Below are positions 5,698 to 32,538 of a stretch of DNA of 46,557 nucleotides, one piece after another (the first letter of the stretch is position 1; each line of letters begins with the position of its first letter). The DNA lies in the IMG/VR virus record IMGVR_UViG_3300037054_000363, positions 1-46,557 of that record. The stretch is one strand, 5' to 3'. The notes below the pieces were generated by a model. The model was given only the letters and a program-made list of their open reading frames with translations, was not told where the DNA came from and did no database searches. Both the position numbers and the translations under genes were made by a program. Origin of the DNA: a virus.

Positions 5698-6468
5698 ATG
5701 GCGTTACAATTGGTTGTTGATTCTCTGGACTCCGTTCCTGAGCCGCTGCGCGGCGACTACGCCGCACAAGAGGGTGGCAAATTTCGCCTCAATGTCGACG
5801 GGTTGCAGGACAACGGCGCGCTGCTTAAGGCGCTCCGGACCGAACGCGAGTCCGTCAGTAAACTGAAGGCCGACGCCGCGCCGTGGAAAAAGCTTGGCAA
5901 GACGCCCGACGAAGTCGCCGCGATCCTTGCGGCGGGGGATGCAAGGGAAGCCGAGACGGCTGCGCTCGCCGAAAGAGCCGGGAATGTCGACGCGATCCTA
6001 AAGCAGCACCAAGAAACCTGGACGCAAAAGGAAAAGCTGCTCACTGGCGAATTGAATGCGGCGCGCGCGTCCGAACGCACCGCGATTATCGAAACGACCG
6101 TGACCGCCGCGCTCACCGCAGCGAAGGCCACACCGGAAGGGCTCGACCTGCTTACCGACCGACTCGGCAAGCGACTCCGACTTGAGACGGTAGACGGCAA
6201 ACGGAAGATTCAAATCCTGCAGGCCGATGGCGAGACGCCAATGGCTGGAAAGGGGCCGGGCGGAGTGGCAACCCTCAATGACCTCGTGCAAGAGGCCATG
6301 AAAACGTGGCCCTCGCTATTCATTGGGTCGGGCGCCGGTGGCGGCGGGAAGTCGTCACGGGAAAGCAAGTCCGCGCCGAGTCGCACGATCACTCGCGCGG
6401 AATTCGACACGCTGAGCCCGCGCGCACAGGCCGACAAGATGAAGGCCGGAATCAAACTGATCGACTGA
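5698..6468 (+). CDS. phage scaffolding-type protein (gp20-like)
   Basis: 256 residues. The N-terminus (LVVDSLDSVPEPLRGDYAAQ, then GGKFRLNVDGLQDNGALLKAL) is the signature of phage capsid-scaffolding or minor structural gp20-like proteins. A long charged helical and coiled-coil segment (residues 40-150), a TPEGLDLL region and a Gly-rich tail follow, with a final EFDTLSPRAQADKMKAG helix. In phages this gene directly precedes the major capsid gene and its product directs shell assembly. Here the next gene is not a capsid protein and none exists in E1, so the scaffold would have to act on a helper's capsid. It has a GAAGGG ribosome site. Family assignment is good; the hijacking role is inference. 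Confidence 0.75.
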   Translation: MALQLVVDSLDSVPEPLRGDYAAQEGGKFRLNVDGLQDNGALLKALRTERESVSKLKADAAPWKKLGKTPDEVAAILAAGDAREAETAALAERAGNVDAILKQHQETWTQKEKLLTGELNAARASERTAIIETTVTAALTAAKATPEGLDLLTDRLGKRLRLETVDGKRKIQILQADGETPMAGKGPGGVATLNDLVQEAMKTWPSLFIGSGAGGGGKSSRESKSAPSRTITRAEFDTLSPRAQADKMKAGIKLID

Positions 6469-9575: not shown

Positions 9576-11795
9576 ATGCACACGATCGACTATGTTCGTT
9601 CAATCACCGCCTTGCGCCGTGAGGTGGAGCGCGGCGAGATACTGCCTGACTTGCAAGCGCGACTCGCCGTTCGGATTTCAGAGGACGCGACCGAGTCTCT
9701 GATTTATTTTTTCGAACAGCAGCCGCCTAACTTTGATCCCGAACGCCTCGGATGGGATTTGCGGCGGCTTTTTCCGGAAGATGGATTCGACCTGTTCGCC
9801 TTGGCTGTCGCCGTGTTCGGCAATCCGCGCGACTCCGCGCTGCGGAATCGCGACGGCACGGCGCAGACGTACCTGGAGAGTGCGTGGGCGTCGTTCGATC
9901 GGCAGCGCGACACCGCCGACCGTCTCATGATTGACGAAATGGACGACGCGCGCGCGAGCGAATGGCCCGCGCCGCCCGAGATTGCCGCCGCAATCGAGGG
10001 TCTCACCGACCTTGCCGACCGCGCGCGCGCCGATCGCGACGCTGCCGCCGAACGTGCGTGGCAAATCGCGGCGGCCGCGGACTACGCGGCGGATATCGCC
10101 GCCGAACAGCAGAAAGCAAATCAAGTGAGCCAATTGCCCGCCGGAACGCCCGGCCCGGGCGGCATGCCGCTGCTTTCGGGACAAGCCGTCATCGTGGATC
10201 TTGGTGCGCCAATTCTTGAGGGTTTCAACGCCGGCCGTGCATCGATGCCATGCCCCGACGCACCGGCGCTACCCGACGTCATGGCGCCGCATCCGCTCTA
10301 CACCGCGGCCAATCTGGCGATTGGTCACTTGGTCGCCATGGCACAGTCGCCCGTCGCGTTCCGGGCGTCCACGGTCGCCGACGTGCTCGGTGTGCTCGCG
10401 GCGGTCCACGCCGACACGCTCGCGGCCGCTGTCGCGCGATTGCGCGGACTCGGCGTGGTGCTGCCCGAAGGAAAGCTAAGCATCGCCGCGAAGCGATTCG
10501 AAACCGCAGTCGCGCGCGAACTTCGCCAAGTGCGCGGCTACGTCAACCGGATCGACGGGACGCCCGAGCCGATGGACGCGCAGAATCTCGCGGTGTTCCT
10601 GCGGCTTGTCGGCGTCGAGACGCGCCATAACGCTTGGAAGCAACGCGCCGAGTTGCGATGGTCTGAGGGCGAATGGACACCTGTCACAGATGCAGAATTG
10701 AATCACCTACGCGCCATGGCGAGCGGCGAGGAGCATCGATTCCGGCCATCAAAAGAATGGTTTCGCGACATGCTCATGGACAACGCGCGGCAACATGGGT
10801 TCGATCCCGTGATCGACCGAATCGACTCGTGCCAAGCCAAATGGGATGGCGTGCCACGCATAGCAACGTGGTTGTCGCGCGTGTGCGGCGTGCCGTGCGA
10901 TCTGTATCACCAAGCGGTCGGAAAAAATCTTGTGGGTGGAATCGTCCGTCGCGCCCGGCACCCCGGGTCCAAGCATGACGAGACAGTGATTCTCATCGGT
11001 CCGCAGGGCTGCGGAAAATCGACGCTCTGTCGTATCCTCGCCTTGAACGACGAATGGTTTTCGGACTCTGTGACGTTCGACGGCACGCCGCAAAACACCG
11101 TGCCGATGCTGTTCGGCCGACTCGTGGTCGAACTCGGCGAGCTTGCCGCAATGCAGCGGCGGGAAATCGAATTTGTTAAGCGATTCCTCGTGGCGCAAAG
11201 CGACTCCGTGACATTGAAGTATCAGGCGTTCACGGACGATTTTGCGCGGCGCTGCGTATTTATCGGGTCGACCAACGCGGGCAACCCTTTGAACGACGTC
11301 ACTGGCAATCGTCGATTCCTGCCCGTCAATATCGCGGCCGGCTTCGAACTGGACCTCGTGTGGCTTCGCGAGAACGTCGACCAGATCGTCGGCGAGGCCG
11401 CGCACCTGGAGGCGGCCGGCGCCACGTTCGACATCCCGCGTGAGGTGTGGGGCGACGCCGCCGAGCACCAGGAGGCCGCGCGATCGGAGTCGCCTCTTGA
11501 GGTGCAATTGGCCGCATGGCTGGACACGAAGCCGGCCGACATATTCATTACCGCGGCTGACCTGCAGCACGGGTTGACGCTGGCGAAACTCAATCCCAAC
11601 GACAAGACGCTGCCCGCGCTCATGCGGCGATTCGGATTCGAGCGCCACAAGGTTCGGGTGCGCGATTTGGGCCAAGCCCGGGTGTGGGTGCGCTCGACGA
11701 CGGCCGCCTATCATCCCGAATGCGCACGCGCCGCACCGTACCAATCGCTACCGGGTCGGCCGGTCGAAATGCGACTCCAATCAATTCGTATTTGA
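9576..11795 (+). CDS. VapE-type replication ATPase (virulence-associated E family)
   Basis: 739 residues from ATG 9576, with a strong AAGGAG site; a longer frame upstream is not expected to be translated. The N-terminal half is helical and acidic with no clear primase motif. The VapE domain spans about residues 420-600: KWDGVPRIATWL, Walker A GPQGCGKST starting at Gly475, a Walker B-like VVELGEL, and the GNRRFLPVNI sensor segment. VapE proteins are superfamily-3-like helicase ATPases that serve as replication proteins in satellites and related islands. The gene is followed directly by an inverted iteron array and then the terminase genes, so it probably drives replication of excised E1. Domain call strong; substrate inferred. 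Confidence 0.9.
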   Translation: MHTIDYVRSITALRREVERGEILPDLQARLAVRISEDATESLIYFFEQQPPNFDPERLGWDLRRLFPEDGFDLFALAVAVFGNPRDSALRNRDGTAQTYLESAWASFDRQRDTADRLMIDEMDDARASEWPAPPEIAAAIEGLTDLADRARADRDAAAERAWQIAAAADYAADIAAEQQKANQVSQLPAGTPGPGGMPLLSGQAVIVDLGAPILEGFNAGRASMPCPDAPALPDVMAPHPLYTAANLAIGHLVAMAQSPVAFRASTVADVLGVLAAVHADTLAAAVARLRGLGVVLPEGKLSIAAKRFETAVARELRQVRGYVNRIDGTPEPMDAQNLAVFLRLVGVETRHNAWKQRAELRWSEGEWTPVTDAELNHLRAMASGEEHRFRPSKEWFRDMLMDNARQHGFDPVIDRIDSCQAKWDGVPRIATWLSRVCGVPCDLYHQAVGKNLVGGIVRRARHPGSKHDETVILIGPQGCGKSTLCRILALNDEWFSDSVTFDGTPQNTVPMLFGRLVVELGELAAMQRREIEFVKRFLVAQSDSVTLKYQAFTDDFARRCVFIGSTNAGNPLNDVTGNRRFLPVNIAAGFELDLVWLRENVDQIVGEAAHLEAAGATFDIPREVWGDAAEHQEAARSESPLEVQLAAWLDTKPADIFITAADLQHGLTLAKLNPNDKTLPALMRRFGFERHKVRVRDLGQARVWVRSTTAAYHPECARAAPYQSLPGRPVEMRLQSIRI

Positions 11796-11857
11796 AGTGT
11801 CCCGCGCGTACCGCAGCGGTCCCGCTTTTATCGTTGTGAATCAACATTGTTCCACTT

Positions 11858-11968
11858 GGGACACCTGGGACACCTGAATTAAAGAAAGACATAGAGAGTG
11901 AAACATAAAAAAAATATCGGGAACGGAAACATAGGAAAGTAGGTGTCCCACGCTGTCCCAGGTGTCCC
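11858..11968. repeat. inverted iteron array, GGGACA every 9-10 bp (E1)
   Basis: GGGACA at 11858 and 11867 faces TGTCCC at 11944, 11954 and 11963, across an AT-rich centre with a run of eight A (about 11900-11918). Tandem 9-bp iterons around an AT-rich core are typical of replication origins, and the array directly follows the replication ATPase gene. It also precedes the small terminase gene, so a packaging site is the alternative. Confidence 0.75.
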
Positions 11969-11975
11969 AACGCCC

Positions 11976-12183
11976 TTGGAAATTGTCGACAGCCGTCATC
12001 AAACCGCGCCGGTTTTCGATCCCTGTTGCGACCGCCTTTTGCTGCACAACTGGTCTAGTACCGGTTGGTCTCAAGCTAGAAATCCCGTATTTTATGGGAT
12101 AAATTGACTCTGACCGCTTAATCCTGTACTGTGGGCCACATACGGGCCACAAGTGGCGCAATTCGCGCCGATAAATTGCGAGA
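11976..12183 (+). other. non-coding leader of terminase operon
   Basis: No convincing gene. It contains several small dyads, among them TCCCGTATTTTATGGGA (about 12087-12103), GGCGCAATTCGCGCC (about 12153-12167), and two GGGCCACA copies about 16 bp apart near 12131-12155. Likely promoter, operator or packaging sequence for the TTG-initiated terminase operon. Confidence 0.4.
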
Positions 12184-12843
12184 TTGGAACTGGCGAAACG
12201 CGGACCTAACTGCACAGTCTGCCAACACGAAAAGCTGTCGCTGATCGACGTAGGGCTCGTGCACAAGGTTCCGATGCAGGCGCTCGCGGACCGCTTCGAC
12301 GTCAGCAAGGATGCCATCTGCCGGCACGCCACCAACCACCTAAGCCCCGTCCAGCGCGCGGCCATCCTCGCGGCGCAGAAACCGACCGCAATCGACCTGG
12401 ACGCACTCCGCGCGTCGGAAAGCGAAGGGTTGCTTGCGCAGCTTGTGACGCAACGCGCGCGGCTGCAAGGCCACGCCGAACTGGCGGCATCGCTCGGCGA
12501 CGTGCGCGGCGCCGTGAGTGCCGAAGGTGCGATCACCAGCAACCTAGCCCTGGTCGGCCGACTGCTCGGGCAGTTGGTGCAAGTCCATGACGTGCGACAC
12601 ACCTCAATCCTGATATCGGCCGACTACATCCGCCTACGTTCGGCGATCGTCGCGGCCCTTCGGCCATTCCCCGAGGCAGCGCGAGCCGTGGGCGCGGCCT
12701 TGCACGCGCTGGAGGCCGACGCCGCCCGGGACATCACCGCCGCGGCGGGCAGGGCCGCCAAGTCGGCGCCGGCGCTGATCGAGCACGAGGCAACCGCGCC
12801 CGTACCGGCGCGCGTCCGACCTTTGCCGCCGCCCCCGTGCTGA
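12184..12843 (+). CDS. small terminase-like HTH protein (E1)
   Basis: 219 residues from a TTG start (MELAKRGPNCTVCQHEK). An N-terminal CxxC precedes a helix-turn-helix-like segment, ALADRFDVSKDAICRHATN, and a long helical oligomerisation-type region and Pro-rich tail follow. The fold and its place immediately before the large terminase ATPase gene (7-bp overlap) fit a small terminase, which binds the packaging site and recruits the motor. The assignment rests on context and HTH layout, not on a sharp family signature. Confidence 0.65.
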   Translation: MELAKRGPNCTVCQHEKLSLIDVGLVHKVPMQALADRFDVSKDAICRHATNHLSPVQRAAILAAQKPTAIDLDALRASESEGLLAQLVTQRARLQGHAELAASLGDVRGAVSAEGAITSNLALVGRLLGQLVQVHDVRHTSILISADYIRLRSAIVAALRPFPEAARAVGAALHALEADAARDITAAAGRAAKSAPALIEHEATAPVPARVRPLPPPPC

Positions 12844-13592
12844 TCGGGCGCGACCTTGGCCGTATGCTTGACCCGGTGCTGTTCGCATCCGACTGCGGGA
12901 TAAAGCCCGACCCGTGGCAGGCGGGCCTACTGCGAGCCATGCCGCGGCGCGCGCTCCTCTTGTGCAGCCGGCAGTCCGGCAAGACGACCACAACCGCGCT
13001 CATGGCCCTGCATCGCGCGGCCTACGAATCGTCCGCCCTGGTCGTGGTCGTGTCGCCATCGCAGCGGCAGTCGGCCGAAATGCTGCGCACGATAAAAGGA
13101 CTCCACGGCCGGCTCGACGGCGCGCCCGCGCTCGATTCGGAATCGGTGCTCAAGGTCGAACTTGCCAACGGCTCGCGCATCCTGGCGCTGCCCGGCACCG
13201 AGCGCACCGTGCGCGGCTTCGCGGGGGCGAGCCTGGTCATCGTGGACGAGGCCGCGCGCGTCGAGGATGAATTACTTGCCGCGGTGCGGCCGATGCTCGC
13301 CACGAATGCCGCCGGCAGCCTCATCGCGTTGAGCACTCCCGCCGGAAAGCGCGGTTGGTTTTATGAGGCGTGGCACGGTCCCGCCTCCGATGGCTACTAC
13401 CGCGTGCGCGTGTCGGCGCAAGAATGTCCGCGGATATCGCAGGCGTTTCTAGACGAGGAATTGCGCGAGTTGGGGCCAACGCGATTTAGCGAGGAATACG
13501 GGCTCGCGTTCGTGGATCCCGAAGAGTCGGCGTTTCCTACCACGATCATTGATTCGGCCTTTTCAAACGAGGTACTGCCGCTATGGGGATGA
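12837..13592 (+). CDS. large terminase, ATPase half
   Basis: 251 residues from GTG 12837, overlapping the upstream gene by 7 bp. Motor motifs are visible: adenine-binding DPWQAGLLRA, Walker A CSRQSGKT, Walker B LVIVDEAAR, and the coupling motif LSTPAG. The protein stops at VLPLWG, exactly where an intact large terminase would run on into its RNase H-like nuclease. That nuclease is encoded by the next gene in the -1 frame, with a 10-bp overlap. It should power DNA translocation into a procapsid, and must associate with its nuclease half or be fused to it by frameshifting. Confidence 0.85.
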   Translation: MLIGRDLGRMLDPVLFASDCGIKPDPWQAGLLRAMPRRALLLCSRQSGKTTTTALMALHRAAYESSALVVVVSPSQRQSAEMLRTIKGLHGRLDGAPALDSESVLKVELANGSRILALPGTERTVRGFAGASLVIVDEAARVEDELLAAVRPMLATNAAGSLIALSTPAGKRGWFYEAWHGPASDGYYRVRVSAQECPRISQAFLDEELRELGPTRFSEEYGLAFVDPEESAFPTTIIDSAFSNEVLPLWG

Positions 13593-14272
13593 TAACCCGA
13601 CCCGCCGACTGGCGGCATATCCCGGCCCGCGCGGTCAATCGCTGGATCGTCGGCGCGGACCTCGGGCAGAGTACGGACCCCACTGCTATTTGCGTGATGC
13701 ATCACCGCGTCGTGCCGCTCGAAAAGTGGACGCCCAACGCGAAAGCCGAAATGTGGAGGCAAGACCGCGTCGAGCATTTCGACGTTCGGCATTTGGAACG
13801 ATTGCCGCTCGGCTTGTCCTACCCGGTACAGGTCGCGCGCGTCGCCGCGCTCTTGCAGCGTCCGCCGCTCAATGCGTGCAAACCGACTTTGATCGTTGAC
13901 GAGACGGGAGTCGGTCGTGCGGTTGCCGATATTTTTGACACCGCAGGACTCCGACCGCAGCGCGTGACGATCACGGCGGGCCTCGAAACGACGCAGCACG
14001 GCGGCAATTCATGGCACGTTGCCAAGACCGTCTTAATTTCGGGGCTCGATGCGCGTCTCCACACCGGCGAATTGAAAATCGCCGCCGCACTGTCTGACGC
14101 TGGCGCACTACTGGACGAGTTGAAAGATTTTCAGCGCAAGGTGTCGGACGCGGGGAGGGCAACATATGCCGCCCGGACCGGCGCGCACGATGACTTGGTA
14201 CTTTCCATTGCGATCGCGCTATGGTGGGCGACGTCGGGGCCGACCAGCAGCGTAGGGGAGCTACGACTATAA
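13583..14272 (+). CDS. large terminase, nuclease half
   Basis: 229 residues from ATG 13583, which lies inside the end of the ATPase gene (TATGGGGATGA). RNase H-like nuclease motifs: the first acidic residue in VGADLGQSTDPTAICV, a second in LIVDETGVGR, and the last in ARTGAHDDLVLSIAIA, where DD closes the metal site. All three acidic positions are kept, so the nuclease looks active. A GGGG run at the junction would allow a -1 shift giving a fused protein; otherwise this is stop-start reinitiation. A real split or a single-base assembly error cannot be separated from the sequence alone. Confidence 0.85.
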   Translation: MGMITRPADWRHIPARAVNRWIVGADLGQSTDPTAICVMHHRVVPLEKWTPNAKAEMWRQDRVEHFDVRHLERLPLGLSYPVQVARVAALLQRPPLNACKPTLIVDETGVGRAVADIFDTAGLRPQRVTITAGLETTQHGGNSWHVAKTVLISGLDARLHTGELKIAAALSDAGALLDELKDFQRKVSDAGRATYAARTGAHDDLVLSIAIALWWATSGPTSSVGELRL

Positions 14273-19315: not shown

Positions 19316-19584
19316 AGCCCTTGCTGACTCAGGTGATCGACGGGCTGCGACCGCAGCTCGCGCGCAACTTCCCGGTTCGGGAACGCATTGTCGTTGTCTG
19401 GGCGGTGATCGTCGAGAGCCGCGATCTCGGTTCAAGCGATGTTGTCGCCGATGATTTTCGAGAGCTCGCCGCCGAGACAGGCTTGATCGCCGACCTTGGC
19501 CGGCACGGTGTCGAAGATTTTGAGCACGTCCTGCGCGCCGGAATGTGCGGATGGAATCCTTTTGAAAAAGGTCGCGTCGCATGA
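19312..19584 (+). CDS. hypothetical protein, coupled to helicase/primase gene
   Basis: 90 residues from GTG 19312 (GTGA overlap with the upstream stop), ending in an ATGA overlap with the ATPase gene. Predicted alpha/beta, no metal or nucleotide motif. Overlaps on both sides place it in the replication operon, possibly as a loader or accessory of the ATPase. Confidence 0.6.
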   Translation: MKPLLTQVIDGLRPQLARNFPVRERIVVVWAVIVESRDLGSSDVVADDFRELAAETGLIADLGRHGVEDFEHVLRAGMCGWNPFEKGRVA

Positions 19585-21203
19585 CCAATCCCGTCGAAGA
19601 TATTTTGGCGCGCGCCGCTGCTCGGACGGGGAAACCCACGGGCAAGCCGGCGGTTAATGCTGCGCCGAATGGTGGGCACAAAATTGATCCGGCGGGCGAA
19701 GGCGATGCCGAAACCTCCGCCGACTCCAGCAAGTCCGGTAAGCCGAAGCAAGCCGATCTCCTGATCTCGCTGGCGCAAGGGGCCGCGCTCTTTCACACCG
19801 CGGACGGCACGCCGTTCGCGGACGTGAAGGTCGGCGACCACCGCGAAACCTGGAACGTGCGGAATAAGGGCTTCCGTCGCTGGTTGGCTCGGCGATTTTT
19901 CAATGAGACCGGCGGCGCTCCAAGCTCCGAGGCTCTTCAGGCGGCGCTTAATGTTGTCGAGGCGCGCGCACATTTTGACGGACCCTTGCGCGATATTTAT
20001 GTCCGCGTAGGCGGAGGTGACGGCAAAATCTACATCGACCTTTGCGACGACACTTGGCGGGCGATCGAGATAACGGGTGATGGCTGGCAGGTTCTTGCCG
20101 AACCTCCCGTTCGGTTTCGTCGGGCGGCCGGCATGAAGACGCTGCCAGAACCGACCCGCGGCGGATCAATCGACCTGCTGCGTCGGTTTCTGAACATCGC
20201 ACACGACGAGGAATTTACGCTCGTGGTGGCGTGGCTGCTCGCCACCCTGCGAAACCGCGGCCCGTATCCCGTTCTCCTCGTCAACGGCGAACAGGGGTCG
20301 GCGAAGTCAACGTTCTGTTCTCTCGTGCGATCGTTGGTTGATCCGAACAGCGCGCCTTTGCGCGCCTTGCCCCGCGAAGATCGTGATTTGTTCATCGCCG
20401 CTAACAATAGCCACGTCCTCGCCTTCGACAACGTTAGCGGGATGCAGACCTGGATTTCCGACACCTTGTGCCGCTTGTCCACGGGCGGCGGCTTCGCGGT
20501 GCGAAAGTTGTATTCGGATTCGGACGAGGAATTGTTCGACGCATCGAAGCCGACCATTCTCAACGGCATCGACTCGGTCATCACGCGGCCGGATCTGGCC
20601 GACCGCGCAATCTTCCTGACGCTCGATCCTATTCCCGATTCCGCCCGGGTGCCTGAGCAGGAATTGGTGGAGCAGTTCGACCGTGAGCGGCCGGCGATCC
20701 TTGGCGCTCTTCTAGATGGTGTTGTTCGAGGACTCCGCGACCTTTCTTCTACGCGCCTCGATCGTCTGCCGCGCATGGCTGATTTCGCCTTGTGGGCGGC
20801 GGCCTGCGAGTCTGAGTTCTGGCCGGCAGGTACATTCTCCGCCGCTTACGGTGACAACCGCGCCGATATTGTCAGCGACGTGCTCGATGCCGACCCGGTG
20901 GCGTCGGCGGTGATCTCCTACATGAAGGAGCAGGCGGAGCCGGTGGCACACACCGCGGCCGCGCTGCTGAGCCTCCTGAGCGAACTCGTTACCACGCAAC
21001 AGCGCAAGGCGAAGGGTTGGCCCGACACACCGCGCGCCTTGTCGTCCCGCCTTCGGCGGTGCGCACCGTTTTTGCGGAAAGCCGGGATATCGATTGAGTT
21101 CGGCGGCCGGGAGGGCCATGCGCGCGCCCGCATGATCCGGTTGTTCGCGGACGGTGCGGACGATGACTCCTCTGGGTGCCCTGAAACGACAAACGAGGAA
21201 TAG
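19581..21203 (+). CDS. helicase/primase-type ATPase, E2 replication protein
   Basis: 540 residues. A disordered Gly/Pro/Lys-rich N-terminus is followed by a beta-rich domain (IYVRVGGGDGKIYIDL), then a P-loop domain with Walker A GEQGSAKST starting at Gly236, Walker B VLAFDNVSG, and a sensor-like segment FLTLDPIPDS. A C-terminal winged-helix region ends the protein. This is the DUF927/SF3-like phage replication ATPase pattern, different from the VapE protein of E1 though in the same relative position. A GTCCGC iteron array begins 35 bp after its stop. It probably acts at that array as an initiator or helicase; that pairing is inferred. Confidence 0.85.
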   Translation: MTNPVEDILARAAARTGKPTGKPAVNAAPNGGHKIDPAGEGDAETSADSSKSGKPKQADLLISLAQGAALFHTADGTPFADVKVGDHRETWNVRNKGFRRWLARRFFNETGGAPSSEALQAALNVVEARAHFDGPLRDIYVRVGGGDGKIYIDLCDDTWRAIEITGDGWQVLAEPPVRFRRAAGMKTLPEPTRGGSIDLLRRFLNIAHDEEFTLVVAWLLATLRNRGPYPVLLVNGEQGSAKSTFCSLVRSLVDPNSAPLRALPREDRDLFIAANNSHVLAFDNVSGMQTWISDTLCRLSTGGGFAVRKLYSDSDEELFDASKPTILNGIDSVITRPDLADRAIFLTLDPIPDSARVPEQELVEQFDRERPAILGALLDGVVRGLRDLSSTRLDRLPRMADFALWAAACESEFWPAGTFSAAYGDNRADIVSDVLDADPVASAVISYMKEQAEPVAHTAAALLSLLSELVTTQQRKAKGWPDTPRALSSRLRRCAPFLRKAGISIEFGGREGHARARMIRLFADGADDDSSGCPETTNEE

Positions 21204-21237
21204 GAGTGAGGCCGCCAGAATGGGTAAGCAAAACACC

Positions 21238-21393
21238 GTCCGCACCGTCCGCACCGTCCGCAGCCCAACCTATCAAGGGGTTAGGGCGGACGATCGTGCG
21301 GACGCAAACGCGGACGCAAAACATACCGTCCGCAGTATCGTCCGCCATAAGTGTTTGATCTGCATACGAAAGAACGGTGCGGACGGTGCGGAC
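21238..21393. repeat. nested iteron array, GTCCGC every 9 and 12 bp (E2a)
   Basis: GTCCGC at 21238, 21247 and 21256 (9-bp steps) faces GCGGAC at 21379 and 21388 (9-bp step). Inside lie GCGGAC at 21286, 21298 and 21310 and GTCCGC at 21328 and 21340, in 12-bp steps. Outer and inner arrays share a centre near 21316-21321. One more copy lies at 21425. It begins 35 bp after the replication ATPase gene, so it is a candidate replication origin. Confidence 0.8.
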
Positions 21394-21461
21394 GCAAAAT
21401 TGCGTACCCATTCCAAGTGCGCCAGTCCGCACTTGGGCGACGGGCGAAAGGATCGCGCGGC

Positions 21462-22061: not shown

Positions 22062-22655
22062 ATGCGGAAAATGATGATGAGCAAACAACCGAAACGAAAA
22101 ACGCAAAAGCAAATGCGATTGACAAAGATTGAACGCCACGAGCGGGAAATGCAGCGCCTCGCCGGCCTACTTGCCTCGACCGGCGATAGTGTGACCGCGC
22201 CACCTGAACTGTTGAATGATCCGCGCCGTGCTATCGCGTTGAGGTTCTGGACGGACCATGCGCCGCGCCTTGCCGCGCTAGGCGTCCTTGATGATCTATC
22301 CCGCCTCAATCTGTGGCTGCTAGCGGCGTATGTGAGCGAGTGGATCACAGCCGATGACGACGTGCAGCGGCGTGGCTATTCCATGATGGTGCCGACCGTT
22401 GCTGGCGGCGCGCGTGGTGCGATGCCCAGACTGAACCCGGCGGTCGATCGTAGGGACCACGCTCTGAAGGTCATCATTGAGCTGCAACGTCATTTCGGCT
22501 TTTCCGCACTTGATCGCGCTGCGCTCATGCGGCTGCGCCGCGCTGTCGACTCCTTGCCAATGTTTCCAAGTGGTGATGAGGCGCCTCGCGCATCATCTGC
22601 CACCGCCGCCGATCCTGGTCAGTGGGATCGGCTCGAACGTCCCAAGGTGAACTGA
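22062..22655 (+). CDS. small terminase, P27 family-like
   Basis: 197 residues. A basic N-terminal tail is followed by the P27-type pattern: ALRFWTDHAPRLAALGVLD, DDLSRLNLWLLAAYVSEW, then GYSMMVPTVAGGARGAMPRLNP, and a helix ending FGFSALDRAALMRL. In phages it binds the packaging site and starts cleavage with the large terminase. It is followed directly by an HNH gene (TGATG overlap), a pairing typical of cos phages where HNH and terminase act together. The start could also be ATG 22071 or 22074 in the cluster of Met codons. Confidence 0.8.
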   Translation: MRKMMMSKQPKRKTQKQMRLTKIERHEREMQRLAGLLASTGDSVTAPPELLNDPRRAIALRFWTDHAPRLAALGVLDDLSRLNLWLLAAYVSEWITADDDVQRRGYSMMVPTVAGGARGAMPRLNPAVDRRDHALKVIIELQRHFGFSALDRAALMRLRRAVDSLPMFPSGDEAPRASSATAADPGQWDRLERPKVN

Positions 22656-25103: not shown

Positions 25104-25240
25104 GATTCGAAGTGCCGATGTTAGGCCCGGTGCTTCGGAAACCATGCCGCGTGCATCGGCATGGCCTCTGGGAAGCCCGGCGGAACGGGGAGGGCTCCAC
25201 GTTCCGCCGGGCGGATATCGGCTTGCCCGTGGAAATATGA
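25100..25240 (+). CDS. very small hypothetical protein
   Basis: 46 residues (MRFEVPMLGPVLRKPCRVHR to ADIGLPVEI), with its ATG overlapping the protease stop (ATGA). No domain. The overlap with the upstream stop and only 10 bp to the terminase start make translation plausible. Confidence 0.4.
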   Translation: MRFEVPMLGPVLRKPCRVHRHGLWEARRNGEGSTFRRADIGLPVEI

Positions 25241-25250
25241 CAGTGCTTTG

Positions 25251-27029
25251 ATGGCATGGAATCTAAGTTGCAACGACTGGGAGGATCGCCTTCGCGGCGG
25301 TCGATCGCTTGTGCCTGATCTTCCGCTCGATCGATTCGAAGCGGACCAAGCCCTGAAATTCTTCAATCAGCTGCAACTGCCGGACGTTCCCGGCAAGCCG
25401 GCGTTGGCGGAGGCCGGCGGAGATTGGTTCCGCGATATTGTCGCGGCGCTTTTCGGTTCACTCGTTCCAGGCAGCAACGAGCGGCTGATCCGAGAACTGT
25501 TCATCCTGGCGCCGAAGAAATCCAGCAAAACGACTTACGGGGCCGCGCTCATGATGACGGCGTTGCTCGTGAACAGGCGACCGCGCGCCGAGTTCCTGAT
25601 CGTGGCCCCTACCAAAATGATTGCGGACCTTTCGTTTAACCAGGCGGTCGGCATGATCCAGGCCGCGCCCGAGCTTGCAAAGCGGTTTCATATTCAAGAG
25701 CATTTAAAACAGATCACGGACGCGCGGAGCGAAAGTCGCGGCGGTACGCAAGCGCAGCTCAAAATCAAGACCTTTGACACGGGCGTTCTGACCGGAGTCA
25801 AGCCGGCAGGTGCGCTGCTAGATGAGCTGCACGAGATCGCCAAGGATCCCGCCGCGTCGCGAATTATAGGTCAATTGCGCGGCGGTCTCCTACCAAATCC
25901 TGAGGGGTTTTTGGCGTTTATCACCACACAAAGCGATCAACCGCCGAGCGGCATTTTCCGGACCGAGCTAATCAAGGCGCGAATGATCCGCGACGGCAAG
26001 GCCGGCGGTGCAATGCTGCCCGTGCTTTACGAATTTCCCGAAAGCATGCTGGCCTCGGGCGAATGGCGCGATCCGGAACAATGGTGGATGGTAACCCCAA
26101 ATCGGGGAAAGTCCGTAACAATCGATCGGCTTAAGGAAGACTGGGAATCGGCGCAGCTCGCGGGCGAGGATGAAGTCTGCCGATGGGCATCGCAGCATTT
26201 GAATATTCAAATCGGGCTGACGCTCCGATCGGATCGATGGGTGGGCGCCGACTTTTGGGATACGTGTGTTGATGACACTTTGACGCTGGACACGCTGATT
26301 GACCGCTGCGAAGTGATCGTCGTTGGCGTCGACGGCGGCGGGCTCGACGACTTGATGGGAATTGCCGTTCTCGGCCGAGAGAAGACAACGCGCCGATGGC
26401 TGTTATGGTCGAGAGCATGGGCACATGCCATCGTGCTTGCGCGCCGCAAGAGCGAGGCCGTCCGGTTCCGAGACTTCGAACGTGATGGCGATCTTGCGAT
26501 TGTTTCGCAGATCGGGCAGGACGTGCTCGAAATTGCTGAGATTATCGAGCGGATCGATGCGTCGGGCCGGCTGGCGGAAAAGGCTGCGATCGGCGTTGAC
26601 CCCGTGGGTATTGGTCAGGTGATCGAAGAGCTGGCGGCCCGCGGTATTGGCGGCGAGCGTGTCGTGGGCGTGCCCCAAGGGTACAAACTTAACGGTGCGA
26701 TCAAGACGCTCGAACGCAAGCTTGCGGAAAATGCGATCGTGCACGGCGGCCGACCGCTTATGGCCTACTGTATCGGCAATGCGCGCATTGAACCGCGCGA
26801 CAATGCGGTGCTGATTACGAAAGCCGCATCTGGAACCGCCAAGATCGACCCGTTGATGGCGCTGCTCGACGCCGTAGCATTGATGAGCAAAAATCCCGAG
26901 GCGGCAATCGGTCGATCCGTGTACGAAGAAATTGCCGAGCGCGCCAAGCTGCAAGGCGAAAAGCCGAGCAGGCTAAGTCCGGCGCGGCGCGATCCTGAGG
27001 ACGAGCGGTATTGGCAGGAGCTTGCATAA
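25251..27029 (+). CDS. large terminase (E2), intact ATPase-nuclease
   Basis: 592 residues. The ATPase domain has a Walker A-like APKKSSKT at residues 87-94, lacking the usual Gly as in some P27-partner terminases, and a Walker B-like ALLDELHE. The nuclease domain begins about residue 355 with VIVVGVDGGGLDDLMG, continues with AAIGVDPVGIGQVIEE, and ends near KIDPLMALLDAV. All three acidic clusters are present. ATG 25251 is chosen over the frame opening at 25161 because the family start fits and the upstream stretch overlaps the 46-residue gene. It partners the small terminase at 22062. The gene order, with the protease before the large terminase, is unusual. Confidence 0.9.
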   Translation: MAWNLSCNDWEDRLRGGRSLVPDLPLDRFEADQALKFFNQLQLPDVPGKPALAEAGGDWFRDIVAALFGSLVPGSNERLIRELFILAPKKSSKTTYGAALMMTALLVNRRPRAEFLIVAPTKMIADLSFNQAVGMIQAAPELAKRFHIQEHLKQITDARSESRGGTQAQLKIKTFDTGVLTGVKPAGALLDELHEIAKDPAASRIIGQLRGGLLPNPEGFLAFITTQSDQPPSGIFRTELIKARMIRDGKAGGAMLPVLYEFPESMLASGEWRDPEQWWMVTPNRGKSVTIDRLKEDWESAQLAGEDEVCRWASQHLNIQIGLTLRSDRWVGADFWDTCVDDTLTLDTLIDRCEVIVVGVDGGGLDDLMGIAVLGREKTTRRWLLWSRAWAHAIVLARRKSEAVRFRDFERDGDLAIVSQIGQDVLEIAEIIERIDASGRLAEKAAIGVDPVGIGQVIEELAARGIGGERVVGVPQGYKLNGAIKTLERKLAENAIVHGGRPLMAYCIGNARIEPRDNAVLITKAASGTAKIDPLMALLDAVALMSKNPEAAIGRSVYEEIAERAKLQGEKPSRLSPARRDPEDERYWQELA

Positions 27030-32463: not shown

Positions 32464-32538
32464 TGGCTCCCCGGGATGGATTCGAACCACCGACCAACCG
32501 GTTAACAGCCGGTTGCTCTACCACTGAGCTACCGGGGA
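32464..32538 (-). tRNA. tRNA-Asn (anticodon GTT)
   Basis: 75 nt including encoded CCA. Read on the minus strand: acceptor TCCCCGG pairs with CCGGGGA, D arm GCTCAGTGGTAGAGC, anticodon arm ending in CTGTTAA (GTT), T arm GGTTCGAATCC, discriminator G then CCA. It is the only intact copy of the sequence whose 3' part is repeated at 1422 and 16435, so it is the integration target of E1 and E2 and is restored by the att repeat. Confidence 0.97.

Follow-up and report, generated by a model that had tools for sequence, protein, structure and literature searches.

A putative replication origin with facing TGGGACA iterons directly downstream of a VapE-type helicase gene in element E1

In E1, the first element of the DNA analysed here, the iteron array located directly 3' of the vapE-type gene is very probably the origin at which the VapE-type helicase of E1 itself starts replication, as judged from sequence and predicted structure. 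The array consists of two iteron sets, two forward and three reverse copies of TGGGACA, which flank a 68-bp AT-rich core. In the following, the window means the whole stretch of DNA analysed (46,557 nucleotides), which is a virus record.

Results

Structure of the array and its neighbourhood

Besides the vapE gene with its putative origin, E1 carries an integrase (1610-2950), a scaffold-like gene (5698-6468, phrog_206) and the TerL ATPase (12837-13592). The features around the array are as follows.

9576-11795, plus strand: vapE-type SF3 helicase, 739 aa, proposed initiator (PF05272, phrog_256, 7pds profile)
11797-11970, no strand: whole iteron array, proposed origin (five exact and two one-mismatch copies)
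11798-11804, minus strand: degenerate iteron TGTCCCG (one mismatch; 2 bp after the vapE stop)
11848-11854, minus strand: degenerate iteron TGTTCCA (one mismatch)
11857-11863, plus strand: iteron TGGGACA (exact copy)
11866-11872, plus strand: iteron TGGGACA (exact copy)
11873-11940, no strand: AT-rich, purine-biased core, predicted melting site (AT content, duplex energies)
11944-11950, minus strand: iteron TGTCCCA (exact copy)
11954-11960, minus strand: iteron TGTCCCA (exact copy)
11963-11969, minus strand: iteron TGTCCCA (exact copy)
12184-12843, plus strand: unassigned 219-aa ORF, placed where a small terminase subunit would lie (position only)
12837-13592, plus strand: terminase large subunit, ATPase half (phrog_7579 E=1e-54, PF03237 E=6e-12)

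The vapE start (ATG at 9576, AAGGAGTCTGAAATG) was our choice. For the ORF at 12184-12843, no family was found in PHROGs at E<=0.1, and HTH_Tnp_4 was matched weakly (E=0.05). The E1 TerL may be split, the ATPase half being followed by an ORF (13583-14272) that matches phrog_27743 (function unknown).

In a direct reading of the stretch, all five exact iterons were copies of the 7-mer TGGGACA/TGTCCCA, two forward (11857, 11866) and three reverse (11944, 11954, 11963). The GGGACA core was present on the plus strand at 11858 and 11867 with a spacing of 9 bp, and TGTCCC at 11944, 11954 and 11963 with spacings of 10 and 9 bp. The two sets face inward across the core with an opposed-orientation gap of 77 bp, and the outer iterons pair as a perfect 17-nt inverted repeat (11856-11872 and 11954-11970) with 81 nt between the arms. 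The main array begins 61 bp past the vapE stop (11795), and the first degenerate iteron lies 2 bp past it.

An earlier note on this DNA had described two forward and three reverse GGGACA steps facing each other across an A-rich centre, after the VapE-type gene and before the terminases. All five steps were recovered as exact 7-mer copies, the centre is indeed rich in A, and the placement agrees with the vapE stop at 11795 and the TerL ATPase half from 12837. The span given there, 11858-11968, marks a real site but starts too late, the weaker copies at 11798 and 11848 having been missed.

The core (11873-11940, 68 bp) has an AT content of 68%, compared with 39% for the window, and is 53% A and 75% purine on the plus strand. 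Among all 68-bp segments of the window, 0.08% were as AT-rich and 0.04% as purine-biased. By nearest-neighbour energies, the least stable 60-bp duplex site of the 46.6-kb window was the core (site 11874).

Chance expectation was taken from dinucleotide shuffles of the whole window. A 7-mer present five or more times within 120 bp, with copies on both strands, occurred in 1 of 200 shuffles, and a perfect 17-nt inverted repeat with arms at most 200 nt apart in none of 200. Hexamer clusters appeared in 16 of 40 shuffles, so a hexamer cluster alone is weaker evidence; the E1 array holds six GGGACA-core copies, and the shuffle maximum was five.

Other structures were considered for the same site. 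A simple hairpin was rejected since the additional non-symmetric copies suit iterons better, a structured RNA since the array had no Rfam match, and a terminator since the sole terminator-like match was at shuffle level. Literature searches for a TGGGACA iteron gave nothing relevant, and the GC-skew minimum of E1 (13208) lies away from the array and is uninformative for so short an element.

The VapE-type protein

The protein matched PF05272 (E=1e-52) and phrog_256 (DNA helicase, E=1e-65), with the P-loop and core at about residues 419-636 and a predicted C-terminal winged helix at about residues 640-706. Its best solved relative by profile was PDB 7pds (PriRep1 with dsDNA, E=2e-124). PriRep1 (7pds) was also the best fold match in Foldseek (E=3e-22, target-normalised TM 0.63-0.65), obtained with an AlphaFold2 model of mean pLDDT 60 overall that is reliable only for about residues 400-706, covering the ATPase core and the winged helix; the NrS-1 primase-helicase and the SaPI5 primase-helicase 7ola were found further down the structure list. 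In this model the C-terminus folds as H-H-H-E-E, three helices and a beta hairpin forming a winged helix. Profile and model together point to an SF3 initiator helicase like SaPI Rep, with a predicted DNA-binding domain at its C-terminus.

The first 390 or so residues showed no recognisable primase domain, and priming for E1 is therefore probably provided by a host primase or another element-encoded one. Peptide patterns gave no close relatives of the E1 VapE in viral or genome contigs, and no related DNA was found in phage records.

Arrays at VapE loci collected independently of the motif

VapE loci were gathered from genomes, named phages and plasmids without using the motif. At five positions relative to the gene, the count of the commonest hexamer in a 500-bp stretch was set against 60 dinucleotide-preserving shuffles. 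Directly 3' of the vapE stop, this hexamer exceeded all 60 shuffles in 21 of 36 loci, and in all 21 it was present in both orientations. The same test at the control positions gave 0/38 at the gene end, 1/38 in the gene middle, 0/20 on the 5' side and 0/28 far 3'. By this exact-hexamer test, 15 of the 36 loci were without an array.

The iteron words varied between VapE lineages and included GGAACA, GTTACA, GGCAAC, TGAACA, GTGACA, AGGACA, GGTGGA and others. Opposed iterons 70-140 bp apart were observed in 17 of 22 arrays when the E1 window is counted and in 16 of 21 without it, where shuffling the orientations gave an expectation of 8.9 and random positions one of 4.8. At 16 of 22 loci (expected 2.9), the array contained the weakest 50 bp of the 1.9 kb around it. 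Across the sequences compared, the iteron sequence shifts between lineages and the architecture persists. As to the conservation in related elements on which the earlier note had made its reading depend, the exact repeat is not universal, and what recurs at most of the VapE loci compared is a lineage-specific repeat with the same layout at the same place.

This layout was observed beside VapE-type helicases in Acidovorax, Pasteurella, Corynebacterium and Paenibacillus phages and in a staphylococcal Triavirus. In two E. coli plasmids, L477 (NZ_CP051223.1, 3690-5320) and L478 (NZ_OP242302.1, 1266-2980), VapE is the sole annotated replication gene (their gene tables are incomplete) and the same layout lies 3' of it. 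Both are small enterobacterial plasmids (10-13 kb) carrying a GGTGGA iteron array with a 118-bp opposed gap; they may be satellite-like, with an uncharacterised type of replicon.

Once similarity of the ATPase domain was accounted for, loci with more similar C-termini were no more alike in iteron type (partial rho 0.05, p=0.23). In the Pseudomonas-type VapE clan the GGGACA arrays face outward, opposite to the inward-facing iterons of E1, so one detailed loading geometry may not be general for all VapE arrays.

The GGGACA word at other initiators

Viral contigs were scanned for TGGGACANNTGGGACA and, as a control, for the same pattern read backwards. Sites with at least two nearby copies in opposite orientation made up 52 of 119 for TGGGACANNTGGGACA and 5 of 119 for the backward pattern. 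A 15-mer scan gave 66 matches, near the estimated chance level, and for this reason clustering and orientation alone were taken as evidence.

The genes neighbouring GGGACA arrays were overwhelmingly replication initiators (AAA_25, VapE/DUF5906, Prim-Pol and Toprim); of 46 such genes, 17 were AAA_25, 14 VapE and 12 Prim-Pol, with overlap for the Prim-Pol count. In one AAA_25 initiator family the array was located 1-34 bp past the stop in 41 of 41 relatives, with GGGACA-type words in 38 and GAACAA or GGGTAC in the other three. As the GGGACA sets were picked by the motif or from one seed, these counts show that the arrangement is conserved and not how frequent GGGACA is overall. In some AAA_25 initiator genes (L052, L059) the iterons fall within the coding sequence, in its final few hundred bases. 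By the exact-hexamer test none of six D5_N genomic loci had an array, and seven Prim-Pol genomic loci gave no convincing array save two weak cases.

At the motif-unselected VapE loci (L439-L492), ACA/TGT was observed within the iteron words of 9 of 21 arrays. This is an excess over the 11.7% of hexamers that contain it (p=3e-4) and over 19 of 298 control windows, the loci being not fully independent. A portable iteron code, in which TGGGACA, or more generally a word ending in ACA, serves the origins of unrelated motors (the SF3 VapE/DUF5906 and the RecA-fold AAA_25), is conceivable but rather doubtful, and the GGGACA set in this comparison was itself selected by that motif. If true, such a code would have spread through joint swapping of C-terminal DNA-binding domains and origin across phages, satellites and plasmids.

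A second element, E2

E2 repeats the arrangement of E1 with another word. A 540-aa P-loop protein is encoded at 19581-21203 (phrog_1156 DNA primase, E=0.019; poor AlphaFold2 model), a relative of which is annotated as DNA helicase/primase in Microbacterium phage Zeta1847. The array (21147-21430) contains 13 copies of GCGGAC in both orientations with a unit of about TGCGGACG, and the P-loop gene ends inside it; TerS (22062-22655, PF05119) and TerL (25161-27029) follow. The relative L493 keeps CGTCCGC, and L496 has GTACTGAC repeats instead. A single tRNA-Asn (gtt) was found inside E2 (32464-32538, minus strand).

Discussion

Proposed mechanism of initiation

The origin of SaPIs and Gram-negative PICIs adjoins the 3' end of rep and consists of an AT-rich region with an iteron set on either side, and plasmids carrying rep and ori of this type replicate autonomously (PMC6092414). 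SaPI Rep binds its own downstream repeats via the C-terminal domain (PMC7581432), and opposed repeats load two head-to-head hexamers (PMC9894130). By analogy with this SaPI and PICI work and that on SCCmec, VapE is proposed to bind both iteron sets, melt the core and act as replicative helicase. Its C-terminal winged helix would recognise the TGGGACA iterons of either set, two hexamers would assemble face to face, open the AT-rich core and then part as replicative helicases, and a primase and the host polymerase would load onto the moving helicases. Helicase gene and origin would travel as a single cassette, so that the iteron sequence would change with the helicase.

Alternative explanations of the array

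The array could be an origin whose iterons are bound by a separate protein, encoded by the element or the host, with VapE loaded secondarily. This would fit the presence of the same GGGACA iterons beside different ATPase types (VapE, DUF5906/D5 and AAA_25) and the null result of the C-terminus/iteron covariation test. It is nevertheless improbable, since the iterons vary strongly among VapE loci, unlike a conserved host site, since the C-terminal domains of SaPI Rep and Cch2 bind the repeats downstream of their own genes (PMC7581432), and since the E1 VapE carries a predicted C-terminal winged helix. The first proposal of the earlier note, in which the element's own initiator binds the array as its origin, gains support from position, architecture, conservation across unrelated elements and predicted protein structure.

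The same note had offered a packaging site as the other choice, and this was disfavoured. A pac/cos-like initiation site recognised by the terminase encoded just downstream would account for the terminase genes within 1 kb after the array, and in Caulobacter phage BL94 and Pseudomonas phage vB_Pae_U5, too, terminase genes come after the helicase gene. The array does not track the element's terminase, however: seven relatives of the E1 TerL (L580-L586) had no clustered GGGACA upstream, and one of them, L582, pairs another helicase with another array. Its helicase is of the DUF5906 type, and the 3' flank of the gene reads ATTTCCATGATTTCCAAGATTTCC, an AT-rich core containing A/T runs, and TGGAAATTTTGGAAATCATGGAAAT, with TGGAAAT iterons that face each other across the core. 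The architecture is that of E1, but the word is not. Arrays also follow the helicase without an adjacent terminase, in plasmids L477 and L478 and in phages where VRR-NUC or other genes come next. From these TerL relatives, the helicase-linked iterons of L582 and the two plasmids, the array goes with the helicase rather than with packaging, and a packaging role is very unlikely. An operator for a transcriptional regulator of the downstream terminase operon has, if anything, a slightly smaller chance still. The array does lie between genes, ahead of those for packaging, and short inverted repeats are typical of operators, but no promoter-like site was found in 11700-12250 with the sigma-70 consensus, the array remains 3' of the initiator whichever gene comes next, and no duplex in the window is weaker than the one at its centre, which is an origin property.

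Implications of a probable origin 3' of the helicase gene

The published confinement of this layout to PICIs looks too narrow, the literature after 2018 having been covered in part. Once called peculiar to PICIs, the layout is common in phages, occurs in plasmids too and is found again next to AAA_25 initiators. It provides a rule for locating phage origins, namely to inspect the region 3' of the initiator gene, and the loci compared here offer many natural origin/initiator pairs for specificity tests.

Comparison with known systems

The alpha protein of phage P4 is a primase-helicase that binds short iterons at ori and crr. Its iteron, GGTGAACA, resembles the TGAACA array of the VapE locus L447. 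Unlike E1, P4 depends on two sites that lie apart and has a helicase other than VapE.

In pRN1, the essential region lies directly 3' of the primase-polymerase/helicase gene ORF904, as in the layout of E1 (PMC4234260), but pRN1 differs in having a 100-nt stem-loop with GTG/CAC motifs, and its authors found no iterons. The SCCmec helicase Cch2 resembles the E1 proposal in that its C-terminal domain binds repeats directly 3' of the gene (PMC7581432). Unlike E1, with VapE and facing repeats, Cch2 is a D5_N/Primase_Cterm helicase whose binding needs three direct repeats.

The rep-ori systems of SaPIs and PICIs (SaPIbov1, SaPI1, SaPI5 and EcCICFT073) differ from E1 in iteron sequence, TGGGACA in E1, and the VapE N-terminal half is without a recognised primase domain. 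A PICI is a small island with int, regulators, a pri-rep-ori module, interference genes and in some cases terS. E1 has an integrase and vapE with its putative origin, but also a TerL ATPase and a scaffold-like gene, not only an interference/TerS set, which leaves E1 as a whole only a candidate PICI. The likeness lies in the origin, a proposed one in E1, which in both is located immediately 3' of the gene of a self-loading helicase and has short iterons in two sets on either side of an AT-rich melting site. The initiators are alike as well, PriRep1 (7pds) being the closest structure to VapE, with the SaPI5 primase-helicase 7ola lower in the list, and the predicted winged helix of VapE fits a SaPI Rep-like SF3 initiator. 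As a putative origin, the E1 array belongs to the known SaPI/PICI-type kind.
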